Assembly: GCF_949628265.1 (NCBI RefSeq)
Contig: NC_088788.1
Coordinates: 15,624,001 to 15,688,000, forward strand
Origin: Cloeon dipterum
Taxonomy: Eukaryota; Arthropoda; Insecta; Ephemeroptera; Baetidae
DNA length: 64,000 nucleotides
Reading direction: 5' to 3'
In this document: positions 20,444 to 53,917 of the stretch, one piece after another
How the letters are laid out: the number at the start of each line of letters is the position of its first letter
Numbering within the stretch: the stretch's first letter is position 1
The notes under the pieces: generated by a model
Databases searched by the model: none
The model's input: the letters and a program-made list of their open reading frames with translations, nothing else
What the model was told of the DNA's origin: nothing
Translations under genes and position numbers: made by a program

Positions 20444-22079
20444 ATGGATTTCCGACTACTGTTTGATGATTACTCCAGAGAAATTTACAACCTGACGATA
20501 GAGCAGCAGAGAAGGGCGAGTTTGGAATCACTTTACCTAAACTCGATCGTGGAAGGATTCAGGCCGTCTAGCGGGAATCGAACCATTGATCTGACGCCGT
20601 TGAGAAGACTGTCTTGGATTTCCATTCGGGAGGCTTTATTGAGAAAGCTTGCGTTTGCCAACACTTACGAGCCTATCGAACGGCAGATCCCGACACCGTG
20701 GCTCTTTGAGATCCTCTTGGACCTCCTGGACGAACCGATCCTCAATCTCGACTTTAGCTGTGTAGGAGCCACCAATGTTGTGTTGAGCGTCTGCTTTGAG
20801 GATATGTTTAACGAAGCCATCGATAAACTTGTGAGAAGCAGCACAGGCTGCATCAAAACGCTTAAGATCAACGCCATCCAAAGAGGAGTCCTTTTTTCTC
20901 CCGAGACGGGCAACCTACGCAAAATCATCGGACTAAAAAACCTGCAAGAACTGCGCTTGCCAAGCTACATTTTTCAAGCTCGAGAATTTGAAGACGTGGC
21001 CAACAATTTGTTTAACTTGAGCCTCCTGGAATGCAACCTTCACATCTCCATCCAACCCGAAGGTATGATAGAAAGTCTCCAGCGGTTGGAAAGACTCGAA
21101 AGTTTCACATTCGACGTTTTATGGGGAGAAGAATTCATTGAAGAGCCACCATATTTACAAAGTAGAACAACGCATGGACTATGTTTACCATACAGCCGTC
21201 TCCTGGTCAAAAAGCTCCCTTTATTGCATGTAGCTGGATGTGAACCAACACTAACGCCCCAGCCCGAGAGAGTGAACTGTCACCGACACGAAACCCGAAT
21301 TTGCCACGTTTTGGACGAGGAGGACACATTTTCGCTGACTGGCGCGAGTAAACTAAAACATTTGATCGTTCAGCGCCACATGCAACCGCAACAGGTCCAA
21401 TGGCACTCCAAGCACGCTCGTTCCCTTTGCGTCGTAAATTTGAAAAGGGACGCCGATTGGGAACCTCTTTTGCAATTGGCGAGAATCGAGAGTCTATTTA
21501 TGTTTGGCTGCACTCCTTCCAGAATGATGATGGTTAGGATGCTTGAGAGGTTCGGCCTGTCCCTGAATCTCTTCTCGTGCGACTCACAAGAAACACCTCC
21601 AGTTCACGATATTCTCGTTTTGTGTCCTAGACTCACAAGCCTCAAGACCATGAGTTGTCTTCCTATAATCCTGGAGCGACTTAGAGAGTTGCACTTTCTC
21701 GATACAATTGAGAACCGCGATAGAATTATAGACGTGCTGACCGCGCCTAACCTGGAGAGGTTAGAAATATCGTTCGAAAATCTGCATGAGAGGAGCCTGG
21801 CGGGCGCTACTATAGCGCTGAGGTGCAGAGGAGATGTCGCTCCCAAACTAAAGACGCTCAGAAGTAAGTAGTATTCAAATAATTGAGTTTTTTCAAGATA
21901 TTTTATTTTTTAATGCAGTCCGATCAAGACTTACAACCGTTACGCTGAAAGAATTGATGGTCAATTTCGTCAGAGTCATTTGCACAAAGGCGCCATACCT
22001 GATGGAAGTTAGAATGCCACTTCCTGAACTGGAGCAAATATTTAACTTCATCAATGCTAGAATTTACTTCAATTCTTAG
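20444..22079 (+). CDS. Orphan leucine-rich array protein, copy A
   Basis: I do not recognise this family. Two exons, 20444-21863 and 21919-22079, join in phase 1 to 526 aa. The protein is soluble in appearance: no signal peptide and no membrane segment. It is built of short irregular leucine-rich units (for example LKNLQELRLPSYIF and LQRLERLESFTF), suggesting a solenoid fold, but the units do not follow a strict LRR consensus. The most conserved block among the three copies starts near residue 287: CHVLDEEDTFSLTG, then HLIVQRHMQPQQVQWHS, then DWEPLLQL. The short last exon ends with VICTKAPYLMEV, also conserved. No F-box was found at the N-terminus, although such solenoids often accompany one. 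AATAAA lies at 22393-22398. Confidence 0.8.
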
Positions 22080-22828
22080 GTTAATGCTGTTCACTCTAAA
22101 TATTAATAAGGGAAGAATGTTGTGAATTAAAAAGTTTAGTATATGGGACATGAGATTAAATATTATTGATGGTTTTACGTCAGACAACTGTGTATCATTA
22201 TTGAACTAAACCTTTTCTTGTGGACTTCAGAATGCGAGGCACTTAATTCAATCTCAAAATAATGAAAGAATTAGCACCGTGAGAAATTTAAAGTTAGGAT
22301 TACAAAACGCCTGTAACTTCAAGGCTATGCAACCTGCACGACAGTGGTGTCCTACGTGTTGCACACACACGATATCTGATTTTTCTTTCTTCAATAAAAT
22401 TTTTTGATAAATTAATAAAAAGCTAGTACAGGCCTAATTAATTTGATGCTACAGTAAATTTAGCAACCTGCAAGATGGGGATGCTTAGCTACTTGTCTAC
22501 AACTTCTTTTTTTCGCCAAATAAGAGAATTAATTGTTATTTTTTTAAGAATAATACGTCAAGCATAGCAAAAATTAAATATTTATCTAAATAAATCTGAT
22601 GCTGGAATTCACATAAAAACAGACCGCTGGAAATAAGTAGTTTTAAAAATGAACTCTGGAATTTGAACTTTGAATGATCCTTGTTTGGCCTTTTTGTTTG
22701 TTTCTCCCGACAAGAAGCTAACAAGAATATGATGCCTTGAAAACCCGTAGAATTTTAAGAGTGTTAGTCTTTCAAAGCAACGACAACAATATCATTTCCT
22801 CTTTGAGTCTCTCTGTGTCAGACAAACA
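22080..22828. other. Spacer between array copies A and B
   Basis: AT-rich. It contains the copy A poly(A) signal and a segment around 22327-22390 beginning GCAACCTGCAC that is echoed downstream of copy B near 24525, indicating that flanking DNA was duplicated with the gene. Confidence 0.5.
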
Positions 22829-24406
22829 ATGGATTTGAATCTTACTGAAAAAGAGAGGGCGGATGTGGAAGCTATAACGTCGCATCAGATATCCAGGGCA
22901 AGTTTACGAACAATCGCATTGAACTTAATCTTGGACCACTTGAGAAGCCCGAAACATTTTGATCTGAAGCTTTTGGCCAAGAATTCAATGACGAATCGTG
23001 AAGATCTGTTGCAAAAAATCTCGTCTGCATTTGTCTTTGACCATCCTGAAAAATCGATCCCGATTCATCGACGTTTGCCGACTATTTTGAATTTAATGGG
23101 TGGACCATTGCGATACATTGACCTTGAGAGTTGCACTGCATGGATCACCTCCACTGAGCTGAGTGAAATGTGCTTTGACTGCTTCCTCACGGAAGCCCTT
23201 GAGCTACTTAAGAGGAACAGCCTAAGTTCCTTGAGTTCGCTTACAATAGATGTCACGAACGCCAAAAGGTTTTTTCTTCATACAGTTTTGGAACTGGCCA
23301 ATTTGCAAGAACTCCACTTGAAAGGCTTCATCTTTGAGAGTCGCGAATTTCAGCAAATGTCTTCAATTTTGCTGACATTAGAAATTCTCGAGTGCAGCTT
23401 AAGTCAAAGTATCCAACAAGAGGACTTAAGAGAGGGACTTCAGCGATTGAATAATCTCAGGATATTCTTGTTTGACATGAAATTGAGATCTGTATGGATT
23501 CGAGCGTCAGATTTCGCCGCATTAATCGATGCACGTGCGAGTAACACCCAATTCTTCGTGAAAGAGTTCCCCAGGTTGAACGTGGTTGGCACATACCCGT
23601 CTCTCTCCTTTTGGCAATTATTTAGTCACTGCCACGTTTTGAGAGATGAGCACGCCGAAAGTTTGACTGGGGTCAGTAGACTTCAGCACCTGATCGTCAC
23701 TAAACGCATGCATCCGAGACAGGTTGAGTGGCACTCCGAGCACGCCCTTTCGCTCAGTGTCATTTATATGAATAACGACGACGACTGGGAATCTCTTCTT
23801 GGACTGAAGAGCTTGCAGGCTCTTTACCTTATCAGTAGCAACCCCTCTGAAATCATGATAGCAAGGGTGCTGGCTAAGTTCGGCCCCACACTAAGGTTGT
23901 ACTCCTGCAGCATCAGACAAGGTTACTGCGTTCAGAATGTGCTTGACTTGTGTCCAAGACTAACAACACTCAGGACCATGAACTCGCTTCCCGAACGGCT
24001 TGAGAGGCTCAAGAAATTGCACATGAATATCTCCGAGACGGACAGAAATTACGTAAGGTTGATAAATGTGCTGAGCGCTCCGAATTTGGAAAAGCTCGTC
24101 ATCCGCGTCCATTTTATACATACGTCCAGCCTGGTGACAGTTATTGAGGAAATTAGAGCCAAAGATTTCGTTGTGCCAAAATTAAAAGAGCTCAAAAGTA
24201 GGTTTTTTTAAGTTTATTTTAATTTAGTGAATTTATATTTTTTTGCAGTAATACCAATATATGGATGCATCCCGACACGGCAACATATAATTAATTTAAT
24301 TGGAGTAATTTGTACTAAAGCGCCCCTTCTGATGGTGATCAAAAGTTCAGATCCAGAGATTCAAGCTATGTTTTCCTTTGTTAATAGAAGAGTTCATTTT
24401 GAATAA
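22829..24406 (+). CDS. Orphan leucine-rich array protein, copy B
   Basis: Paralog of the neighbouring copies A and C. Exons 22829-24197 and 24249-24406 join in phase 1 to 508 aa, with the intron at the same place as in copy A. Conserved landmarks: LTEKERADVEAI near the N-terminus, LANLQELHLKGFIFESREF mid-protein, CHVLRDEHAESLTG and RMHPRQVEWHSEHALSL from about residue 268, DDDWESLLGL, and VICTKAPLLMV in the last exon. No signal peptide, membrane span or catalytic motif is evident. ATG 22829 is the first in-frame start and lines up with copy A's N-terminus. AATAAA lies at 24471-24476. Function unknown. Confidence 0.8.
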
Positions 24407-25020
24407 TTTGTGCGTATGTCTGTGTTCGTAGTTCAAGAGTGAGCTTAAATTATTTGTTAACCGCTTGTTGAATAAATATTTATTATTTAAAGCTGAATTA
24501 GGAGAAATAATAATTTGTACGTATGCAACCTGCACGTCAGTGTTGCTTAACGTTTTGCATAATCACATCAGAGGCAATAGTGGTTGATTTTCCCGATTTT
24601 CCTACTTTAATGTCGTGATCGACGGTCTATAGTTTATTTATTTATCAATCAATTCAAATTGTGAATAAATATGGCGTGAAACTTCCAGTTCACTTAGGTC
24701 GTCGTAAATTAAAAACCTTTAAAATAAACAGAAACCAATATAAAACTTTCATAATCTCAAACTATGAATAGTATAGTTTATACAGAATGATTAATTTATT
24801 TGAGTTATGCTATCGCGTGTGTATTTATTTTGAGCAATCACGGCACAACATTAGCTTGGAGTTTGAAACACAACAAATAATATTTAATCAGTTGTTTTAT
24901 TCCAAATAATGTTTCTTCTCAGAGTATCACCCAGAGGGAGAATATCTCAGTTAAGATTTTCCCGATTGTCTGTTGGGAGAGTATAAAATAATATATTTGT
25001 CAGAGTGATAATTTGTGATC

Positions 25021-25071
<51 letters not shown>

Positions 25072-25081
25072 CTCCATAAAT
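24407..25081. other. Spacer and promoter region of array copy C
   Basis: AT-rich. It holds the copy B poly(A) signal and a possible TATA box TATAAAA at 24982-24988. An (AT)n tract lies at 25024-25069, just ahead of the copy C start codon. Confidence 0.45.
25024..25069. repeat. (AT)23 dinucleotide microsatellite
   Basis: An uninterrupted run of AT units ending 12 nt before the start codon of array copy C. If transcription starts near the upstream TATA box, the repeat is part of the 5' UTR. Confidence 0.95.
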
Positions 25082-26743
25082 ATGCGTATCCAACCCGGTA
25101 AGATAGACGACGAATCCACGCGTCTAAATGTTCTACTGACTCCTGAGGACATGGCGCTAGTGAGAAATCTGACAGCCCAGCAGGAAAAAAGGACCCATTC
25201 TGAAATTCTCATCCTCAACAACATCGTGGACAGTCTGCGGCTAAACTCACTGTCAGCGCCTTTGACCAACTCTGAATCCCTCTCCCTAGCAAGGCAACAT
25301 CACTTAATTTTCTTTGAAAAACTCGCGTCAGCCAATCGCTTCGACAGGCATAAAAACAGGATTCCGTATTTCCGTCAGCTTGTGTTAATTTTGGCATTGC
25401 TGGAGGACCCAATTGAAAAGCTCAATTTGAAAAGCACGGGGTCAAACGCCAATCAAAAATCAATCTTCCTCAGGTCAGCACTGCAGAAACTCGCGAAAAA
25501 CAGTTCCTGGAGCATGAAATCCTTATCGATAGACATAAAAAACTCGGGACAATGGTTTACCGGTCAACAAATCATGCATAACGTCTTGAAATTAAAATAC
25601 CTAACCGAGCTCTGTTTGCCCAGCTACATCTTTAAAAAGGAAGATTTCGAAGATGTGTGTAAGAATTTGAGCTTCCTATTAAGTCTCAACTGCAACATAG
25701 ATGCCTACATGACATGTGCAAGTCTGTTTGAGGGGCTGCACCGACTGACCAACCTGCGAAAGTTCATCTTCACCATCCTGGAATGCCAACTGGACAATAG
25801 TCACAGCATCATCAGAGACGTTTGCGAATACACCAGCCGTCTGTGCGTGATAGAGTTTCCTTTGATGAACTTCATTGGACGCAGCCTGTCCGATAGTTTT
25901 AGCCATCAAGAAGAACAAATCACAGCATGCCACGTTTTGAGTGACGAGGACGCCGGAACTTTGTCCGGGACGAGCAGTCTGCAGCACCTGGTCGTTAAGA
26001 AACGTATGCACCCGAAACAAGTGAAATGGCACTCAAAGTGCGCCGATTCCCTCCACGTCTTGTACTTGGACACAGAGGCTGACTGGGAGCCACTCCTGCA
26101 GCTGAAAAACGTCCAATCTCTTTACATAACAAAATGCAAATTTTCCCCCACAATGCTGACGAGATTGCTCAAGACTTTCGGCTCGAGGCTCAAATTGTTT
26201 TCCTGCTGCACCAGAGAGGATTACGCACTAGACGACGTGTTTAAATGCTGCCCCCAACTCGAAACTCTTGACACCAACACCATGCATCCCCTTCCTAGAG
26301 TGCCCGAGAGACTGATCAAATTGCACTGGACCTTTTTGAATCGTGAGCACGACTACAACGCTCTGGTCCAAGTGCTTACTGCACCGCATCTGGAGAACTT
26401 AACAATTAAATTAATAGATATGGATTGGCGTAGAATGACCAATATCACAAATACTCTGAGGGCGAGGGTCGATGTTGCTCCCAAGCTGAAGTCTCTTTCA
26501 AGTAAGCTGTCTTTGTTTTAATTGTGAATTTTATTTTAATCTATGATATATTTTTGTTTATGAATTTCAGTTAGGTCAAGCGCTACATTTGTTTTGCATA
26601 TCGATAAAAGCAAGCAGGTTTTGTTCAATTTTGTCGCTGCAATTTGCACGAAGGCACCCCATTTAAATAACATCGAAATGCCGACTGATGATCTTGAGAG
26701 GGCTTTCTACTTTATTAACGAGAGAAGAGTTCTATTCAACTGA
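25082..26743 (+). CDS. Orphan leucine-rich array protein, copy C
   Basis: Third paralog. Exons 25082-26501 and 26571-26743 join in phase 1 to 530 aa. The N-terminus (LTPEDMALVRNLTAQQEKR) aligns with copies A and B. The core block starts near residue 283: CHVLSDEDAGTLSG, then HLVVKKRMHPKQVKWHSK, then EADWEPLLQLKNVQSLY. The last exon carries AAICTKAPHLNNIEM. The three copies differ widely over most of their length but keep these blocks, which suggests old duplications with the solenoid surface diverging. No known domain is recognisable to me. AATAAA lies at 26871-26876. Confidence 0.8.
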
Positions 26744-53470: not shown

Positions 53471-53839
53471 GCTGCAGAAAGAGGTGCGAAAAGTTACATT
53501 ATGTACTCCGTCTCGTAAGTGAAAAACTATGTTTACCTCTTGCCGAGCACGTCTGCCGATTGCTGTCGAGAAATCTCGTAGGTTTAACGTTAACAACTGT
53601 GTGTACTTCTTAAAAAAAAATTAAAGTTGATGCGTCGAAGGTCGAGGCTAGTAGCAGCCAAAATCAGAGATTATTGTGAGTCGTCGGCCGTCTCGGCCAG
53701 GAGGCGACCTTAACTTGAAAACAAACAAAACCTCTTGTTTCTTGTATGTCCCACAGAGGGCATACATAGCATGAATCAGTTTGTCAGAAGGCAAAGTCTG
53801 AGTATAACTAACGTTAGCTCACGTAATATTTAGCATCAT
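53471..53839. other. MCRS1 5' region
   Basis: Contains a probable non-coding first exon of MCRS1 on the minus strand ending in a donor near 53536 (AAGAG|GTAAAC). Beyond this, no exon seen. Confidence 0.4.
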
Positions 53840-53912
53840 GTTTCCGTGGTGTAGTGGTTATCACATCCGCCTAACACGCGGAAGGTCCCCGGTTCGATCC
53901 CGGGCGGAAACA
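53840..53912 (+). tRNA. tRNA-Val (AAC)
   Basis: A 73-nt sequence folds as a complete cloverleaf: acceptor stem GTTTCCG/CGGAAAC, D-arm with box A (TGGTGTAGTGG), anticodon stem TCCGC/GCGGA with loop CTAACAC giving anticodon AAC, and T-arm with box B (GGTTCGATCC). Discriminator base A. No intron. A run of five T follows directly and serves as the Pol III terminator. Confidence 0.97.
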
Positions 53913-53917
53913 TTTTT
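53913..53917 (+). terminator. Pol III terminator of tRNA-Val
   Basis: TTTTT immediately after the discriminator base. Confidence 0.85.

Follow-up and report, generated by a model that had tools for sequence, protein, structure and literature searches.

Putative leucine-rich repeat recognition proteins of possible Elongin-BC/CUL2 receptor origin in the genome of Cloeon dipterum

Leucine-rich repeats (LRRs) are contained in ZYG11 and ZER1, which also have a C-terminal armadillo-type domain, and a large family of putative ubiquitin-ligase receptors is formed by the F-box genes of nematodes. According to excerpts of PMC4878042, ZYG11 and ZER1 are VHL-box proteins and bind both Elongin C and CUL2; the BC box has the consensus (S,T,P)LXXX(C,S,A)XXX-hydrophobic, and that of the CUL2 box is hydrophobic-P-XX-hydrophobic-XXX-hydrophobic. 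In mammals, the members of the fast-evolving PRAME multigene family are intracellular LRR proteins whose N-terminal VHL-box binds Elongin C and CUL2 (excerpts of PMC3584020, PMC4878042, and PMC3037382), and plant FBX genes have likewise expanded into large families of putative ubiquitin-ligase receptors (excerpt of PMC3030570). Here, we compare with these systems three related leucine-rich genes (g1, g2, and g3) from a window of 64,000 nucleotides (C3:15624001-15688000), together with their relatives in the searched genome (190 Mb, ten contigs). The comparison with PRAME is one of architecture: the proteins are similar in length, but Pfam and PDB scans gave no PRAME-related match, and the BC box is missing in two of the three window genes. 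Unlike ZYG11 and ZER1, the window family is without the C-terminal armadillo-type domain, although some distant relatives have weak LRR_Zer-1 similarity, under cut-off. F-box/LRR receptors (FBXL, TIR1/COI1, and plant FBD-LRR proteins) provide the closest solved folds to the g3 model, and g3 scores just above the LRR_At5g56370 cut-off, whereas no F-box was detected in the window family; from the nematode F-box and plant FBX expansions it differs in both N-terminal module and LRR family.

The original prediction, made from the DNA alone, was of three paralogs of 526, 508, and 530 aa that share one intron position and phase. Gene models and alignments confirm three related leucine-rich genes, and the lengths (g1, g2, and g3, respectively) and coordinates agree with the gene models (Table 1). 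All three have two exons and intact frames and share a single phase-1 GT..AG intron near the C-terminus, and the exon 1 products of g2 and g3 each align with that of g1 at 39% identity. The open frames of these genes (482, 486, and 500 aa), homologous to 19 other frames in the genome, are not due to chance. AATAAA occurs 314, 65, and 128 bases downstream of the stops of g1, g2, and g3. By eye, no signal peptide or membrane span was seen in the window proteins, and an Rfam scan of the window at the gathering score returned no match.

Table 1. Positions of exons, introns, and conserved blocks of the three genes within the window
Feature	Position	Strand	Basis
g1 exon 1 (N-terminal helical domain + LRR domain)	20444..21863	+	gene model, alignments
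g1 conserved block (CHVL..DWEPLL), DNA repeat D1 copy	21302..21499	+	repeat + identity profile
g1 intron, phase-1, GTAAGT..CAG	21864..21918	+	gene model
g1 exon 2 including stop	21919..22079	+	gene model
g2 exon 1, contains SLRTIALNLI (residues 25-34)	22829..24197	+	gene model, motif scan
g2 conserved block, DNA repeat D1 copy	23630..23827	+	repeat + identity profile
g2 intron, phase-1, GTAGGT..CAG	24198..24248	+	gene model
g2 exon 2 including stop (stop codon end = 24406)	24249..24406	+	gene model
g3 exon 1, Pfam LRR_At5g56370 match	25082..26501	+	gene model, Pfam
g3 conserved block, DNA repeat D1 copy	25928..26125	+	repeat + identity profile
g3 intron, phase-1, GTAAGC..CAG	26502..26570	+	gene model
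g3 exon 2 including stop	26571..26743	+	gene model

Genome searches run with single-protein queries brought up further copies, namely, 19 frames of the window type as well as distant relatives. With g1 to g3 included, loci of the window type number 22 and lie on C1, C3, C4, and C5; they are the 21 places that recurred in two genome searches plus L059 (C3:30642689). A GT donor stands one base past the homologous residue in 21 of the 21 loci examined (L059 not among them), with exon ends picked by a residue motif chosen after the frames had been read. In 11 of the 21, a scripted search completed the gene at this donor with an acceptor in phase 1 and an exon 2; g3 has no acceptor by the script's pattern, yet its gene model has one, and the remaining nine loci have either no scripted model or, for L017, L026, and L028, a model elsewhere.

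In a midpoint-rooted tree of 21 rows, for which the program warns of long branches, L027, L028, L029, and L059 are set apart from the other 17 with support of 99/99. Because the tree is without an outside root, the state of these four divergent members may be ancestral or derived. The g1 gene clusters with nine genes from other chromosomes (96/96) and not with g2 or g3, while branching among g2, g3, L012, and L014-L017 is without resolution. Pairwise comparison of g1, g2, and g3 gives dN of 0.60-0.65 and a saturated dS of 1.8-2.45, so the window array is old and not made of recent tandem copies. Recent local duplication, as the term tandem array might imply, is thus rejected on the saturated dS and on the grouping of g1 with genes from other chromosomes.

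Purifying selection is seen over whole exons in recent pairs, with dN/dS of 0.11-0.48 in the 12 pairs among 20 rows that have dS <0.3, and positive selection was not found over whole exons of pairs. In region-wise tests of seven pairs, constraint is strongest in the core for two and not for the other five; core dN and dS are 0.012 and 0.181 in L006/L007 and 0.006 and 0.136 in L004/L005. For L014/L017 and L015/L017, dN is above dS at the N-terminal stretch (0.052 versus 0.009) and, by a small margin, at the first LRR stretch (0.025 versus 0.019), with very few changes involved. The variable surface that the original prediction attached to the conserved core is not demonstrated by these values; its uncharacterized family, leucine-rich fold, and conserved block are supported, as are further copies elsewhere. 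The same dN/dS range, the intact frames of g1, g2, and g3, and the homologous splice donors also argue against the view that these are non-functional or nearly neutral copies from a pseudogene expansion. We regard that view as very improbable; on its side are the stops inside some distant matched stretches, which may be intron edges or pseudogenes, and L026, whose open frame is without an N-terminus.

A conserved core within a faster-diverging protein is found as predicted. Among nine representatives of the window clade, residues 286-345 have a mean pairwise identity of 0.547, against 0.262, 0.320, 0.267, and 0.336 in four other regions and 0.318 in the median 60-residue stretch, with the N-terminal region the least conserved of the five (0.262). 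The core holds the block first described as CHVLxDExxxxLTG, HLIV, MxPxQVxWHS, and DWExLL. The alignment upholds it in the form CHVL..E....L(T/S)G, HL(I/V)V, M.P.QV.WHS, and DWE.LL, present in g1, g2, and g3; neither the D of "DE" nor the T of "LTG" is shared by all of them. This block may serve as the shared working surface of the window clade.

Searches against known families returned marginal LRR matches only. In Pfam at E<=5, g3 matches LRR_At5g56370 at 27.9 bits against a cut-off of 27, g2 matches the same family at 19.1 bits, under that cut-off, and g1 matches only a different LRR family (E 2.1); for the FBD-associated F-box LRR (PF24758) gathering score, the values are 27.9 against 27 for g3, 19.1 for g2, and none for g1. 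Across the 20 members of our family alignment (A1), two LRR families have hits at E<=1 in five members each, DUF4238 in two, and seven more families in one member each. KH_DEAH11 matched one of the 20 members at 2.6e-5. The exon products of distant relatives match LRR families under cut-off, including LRR_Zer-1 in 3 of 10 (E 0.016-0.38), a family that none of the 20 A1 members matches at E<=1. Pfam VHL, F-box, and ZYG11 have no match in the family members or N-termini scanned, nor is there a TIR or NACHT domain in g1 to g3 at E<=5. Searched against PDB sequences, the 20-row profile gave one match, to a bacterial secreted protein, that is not significant (E 0.057), and a profile of the four divergent N-termini gave nothing at E<=10. 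In these searches, the family thus matches no known one, as had been stated at the outset, and the profile searches of Pfam and PDB gave no strong match to a characterized family.

AlphaFold models of g1 and g3, built from the three window sequences alone, are of low confidence (mean pLDDT of 56.4 and 60.1). Both have helices to about residue 100 and then strands and helices in alternation; over the first 100 residues, ten-residue pLDDT means are 45-81 in g1 and 33-52 in g3, with most of this part of the g3 model at pLDDT <50. Foldseek returned 32 rows at E<=0.001 for g1, mostly NLRP, NLRC4, NOD2, CARMIL, RanGAP, or oocyte-complex chains, with E3 receptors only at ranks 17 (FBXL17) and 31 (D3). 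For g3, ranks 1 to 6 are COI1-ASK1, ASK1-D3, SKP1-FBXL17, D3, TIR1, and a DQC ligase, followed by COI1 again at rank 11 and Rad7-Elc1 at rank 12, such rows making up 8 of the 25 at E<=0.001; lower rows include NLRC4, CARMIL, TLR8, and SKP2, among others, and six rows are oocyte complexes with the chain unnamed in the description. The named neighbors of both models are LRR proteins. With TM-scores of at most 0.52 in the rows shown, these results support a fold class and no particular family. Thus, the window proteins likely belong to the alpha/beta LRR solenoid class of the RI/FBXL type with a helical N-terminus, in agreement, at the low confidence of the models, with the leucine-rich solenoid originally proposed.

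The neighbors of g3 (COI1, D3, TIR1, FBXL17, and, lower, SKP2) and the best Pfam LRR match, which comes from a plant F-box protein family, are also what would be expected if these were F-box-type LRR proteins, that is, SKP1-CUL1 receptors whose F-box has diverged past Pfam recognition. We consider this improbable, because Pfam finds no F-box in the 20 members (E<=1) or in eight N-terminal fragments (E<=10). The N-terminal motifs bear on it from both sides: an F-box could begin with a sequence of the form LPxx(hydrophobic)xxxL, but F-boxes are not known to be preceded by a BC-box helix. Since the start of an F-box also satisfies the CUL2-box pattern, that pattern alone is not discriminating.

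All four divergent members carry a strict BC box (S/T-L-xxx-C-xxx-hydrophobic) that begins with S or T and keeps its L and C throughout; identity to L027 is 31-35%. In three of the four, a CUL2-box pattern follows: TLQCLCMDTI and then LPVSVRTDL in L027, SLQSMCVATA and then MPHDMRQDL in L028, and SLKVQCVKAI and then LPKLLRIEV in L059. The fourth, L029, has SLQTRCLNAI and a second motif with T in place of P. When the N-termini of these four are shuffled, the strict pair appears in 0.1-0.3% and the strict BC box alone in 1-4%. Among the 17 compared rows of the window clade, the strict pair is found in none. At the homologous place, SLRTIALNLI of g2 fits the relaxed BC-box consensus in the excerpted text of PMC4878042, while Y in g1 and I in g3 do not, and g1, g2, and g3 all lack a CUL2 box there. 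Of the other clade rows, L002, L003, and L014-L017 have the CUL2 pattern but no BC box, and relaxed BC matches occur at other places in g1, L004, L005, and L012, including a relaxed pair at residues 52 and 82 of g1. We take these off-place relaxed matches as chance, since the relaxed BC pattern alone is met in 11-31% of shuffles and the g1 pair in 2% of g1 shuffles. Judged by eye and unscored, N-terminal exons of the distant relatives L030 (two), L037, and L061 fit the relaxed BC box, and those of L031-L033, L035, L038, and L062 do not.

Our preferred reading, held tentatively, is that the window genes encode LRR proteins that act in recognition inside the cell and descend from substrate receptors of the Elongin-BC/CUL2 ligase, with the window copies partly or wholly uncoupled from it. 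The data directly show the gene models, the family, the fold class (at low confidence), the motif in the sister members, and purifying selection; we infer the ligase link, the uncoupling, the cytosolic location, the role of the block, and the binding partners, and in the same way the "adaptor" of the original prediction is sharpened to an Elongin-BC/CUL2-type origin. Points in favor are the helix/strand models, the E3-type Foldseek ranks of g3, the strict BC boxes, the relaxed box of g2, the LRR_Zer-1 similarity, and dN/dS; points against are the 0/17 for the strict pair, the Y of g1 and I of g3, the lack of a Pfam ligase domain, the NLR-type neighbors of g1, and low pLDDT. Several of the latter are equally at home with LRR recognition or scaffold proteins that never had a ligase history, in which the helices would cap the solenoid and the BC match in four sister genes would be coincidence. 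That account is quite possible, if doubtful: the strict pair is kept in no clade row, Pfam finds no ligase domain, the N-terminal region is the least conserved, and the folds nearest to g1 are mainly NLR-type, but the invariant L and C in all four divergent members and the rarity of the strict pair in shuffles stand against it.

Under an origin from Elongin-BC/CUL2 receptors, an N-terminal helical domain would precede an alpha/beta leucine-rich solenoid whose role is to bind another protein. In the ancestor, an N-terminal VHL-box (BC box and then CUL2 box) would have recruited Elongin BC and CUL2 while the solenoid selected the target for ubiquitylation, and this VHL-box may still be recognizable in the divergent members. 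In the window clade, the putative Elongin-C contact residue is replaced and the contact would have eroded, so these copies are probably uncoupled or weakly coupled receptors that act by binding, scaffolding, or competing. The g2 protein is predicted to be the likeliest of the three to retain ligase binding. An analogous loss is reported in excerpts of PMC4878042, with a VHL-box in only two of the three human ZYG11 family members.

The distant genome matches are exons of multi-exon genes. Frames from all 12 distant loci read (24 frames) reach the HMMER inclusion threshold against the A1 profile, the best at 2.7e-16 in a small search set. In nine distant loci, as read from frames and not from splice models, the last exon runs unbroken across the site of the intron of the 22-member type, and the other exons are separate frames within the region that is a single exon in the window genes. 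A founder copy that arose by retroposition and acquired its one intron afterwards would account for this pattern.

As a genome query, the L033 exon gave at least 150 matches (all of the 150 candidates scored, with 332 seen) and the L062 exon at least 128. Merged within 1.5 kb, the L033-query places and the 24 L062-query places judged new amount to about 172 distant loci among the matches listed, or approximately 194 with the 22 of the window type; these search counts are lower bounds, yet exons more than 1.5 kb apart in one gene are counted twice. Of the 194 listed loci, 166 lie within the outer 20% at either chromosome end, a zone that makes up 40% of the length, and for 144 another locus lies within 50 kb. 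Because clusters are non-independent, both counts are given without a probability. Viral and prokaryote collections yielded 18 and 11 pattern matches, respectively; none of them could be confirmed to be related, and these collections thus lend no support to an origin from viruses or bacteria.

A broader proposal, which we rate as unlikely in its full extent, is that this genome holds some 190 or more undescribed LRR intracellular recognition proteins, concentrated toward chromosome ends and built on the Elongin-BC/CUL2 plan, from which the window clade shed the ligase contact to become free-standing receptors or decoys. Such a repertoire would have evolved independently of the F-box repertoires of nematodes and the F-box/NLR repertoires of plants, with which it could be compared. 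In the open-access literature searched, titles and the openings of abstracts revealed no report of a family of this kind. With about 190 listed loci in an animal genome of 190 Mb and no Pfam family of its own, the family is of a size to be relevant to annotation and to the animal's biology. Should the ligase origin be true, a CUL2-type case would join the known F-box and BTB receptor expansions, and the eroded motif yields a testable prediction of which copies still recruit the ligase. Separate candidate ZER1-like (C3:16184505) and ZYG11-like (C5:11596900) genes are also present in this genome, the names being our interpretation.

Four near-identical members of the family (dS, 0.007-0.06), belonging to the same 22-locus type as the three two-exon leucine-rich genes of the window (g1, g2, and g3), are found at 29.70-29.80 Mb of contig C5 of the Cloeon dipterum genome. 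Because these loci, L014-L017, have diverged so little in sequence, they suggest that copies of the family are still arising. Among the distant relatives, 82 of approximately 172 loci are carried by a single chromosome-sized contig, C2. Three of these distant multi-exon loci, L037, L038, and L062, contain alike open frames between the gene's own frames and on the same strand as the gene, with RMRKSWLDLTKK present in both L038 and L062 and related stretches in L037. This recurrence of inter-exon open frames looks like a transposable element common to the three loci.

In the 20-row alignment of members of the g1-g3 type, one member matched the Pfam family KH_DEAH11 (E, 2.6e-5). Two other genes of the genome were given tentative names from Pfam matches and translations; some 0.5 Mb separates the ZER1-like one from the window. 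The tRNA-Val call in the window received no support from Rfam at the gathering score.

Genes outside the window and tRNA call within it
Feature	Location	Strand	Basis
ZER1-like gene	C3:16184505-16184869		Name read from Pfam match and translation
ZYG11-like gene	C5:11596900-11597190		Name read from Pfam match and translation
tRNA-Val (aac)	window 53839-53913	+	ARAGORN

The noncoding spacers 3' of g1 and g2 carry a short repeat (GCAACCTGCA...) at window positions 22326-22370, 22463-22487, and 24522-24566, which could be either a 3' element that the two genes share or what is left of a duplication. Upstream of g3, an AT-dinucleotide run (about 25025-25070) stops within a few bases of its start codon.
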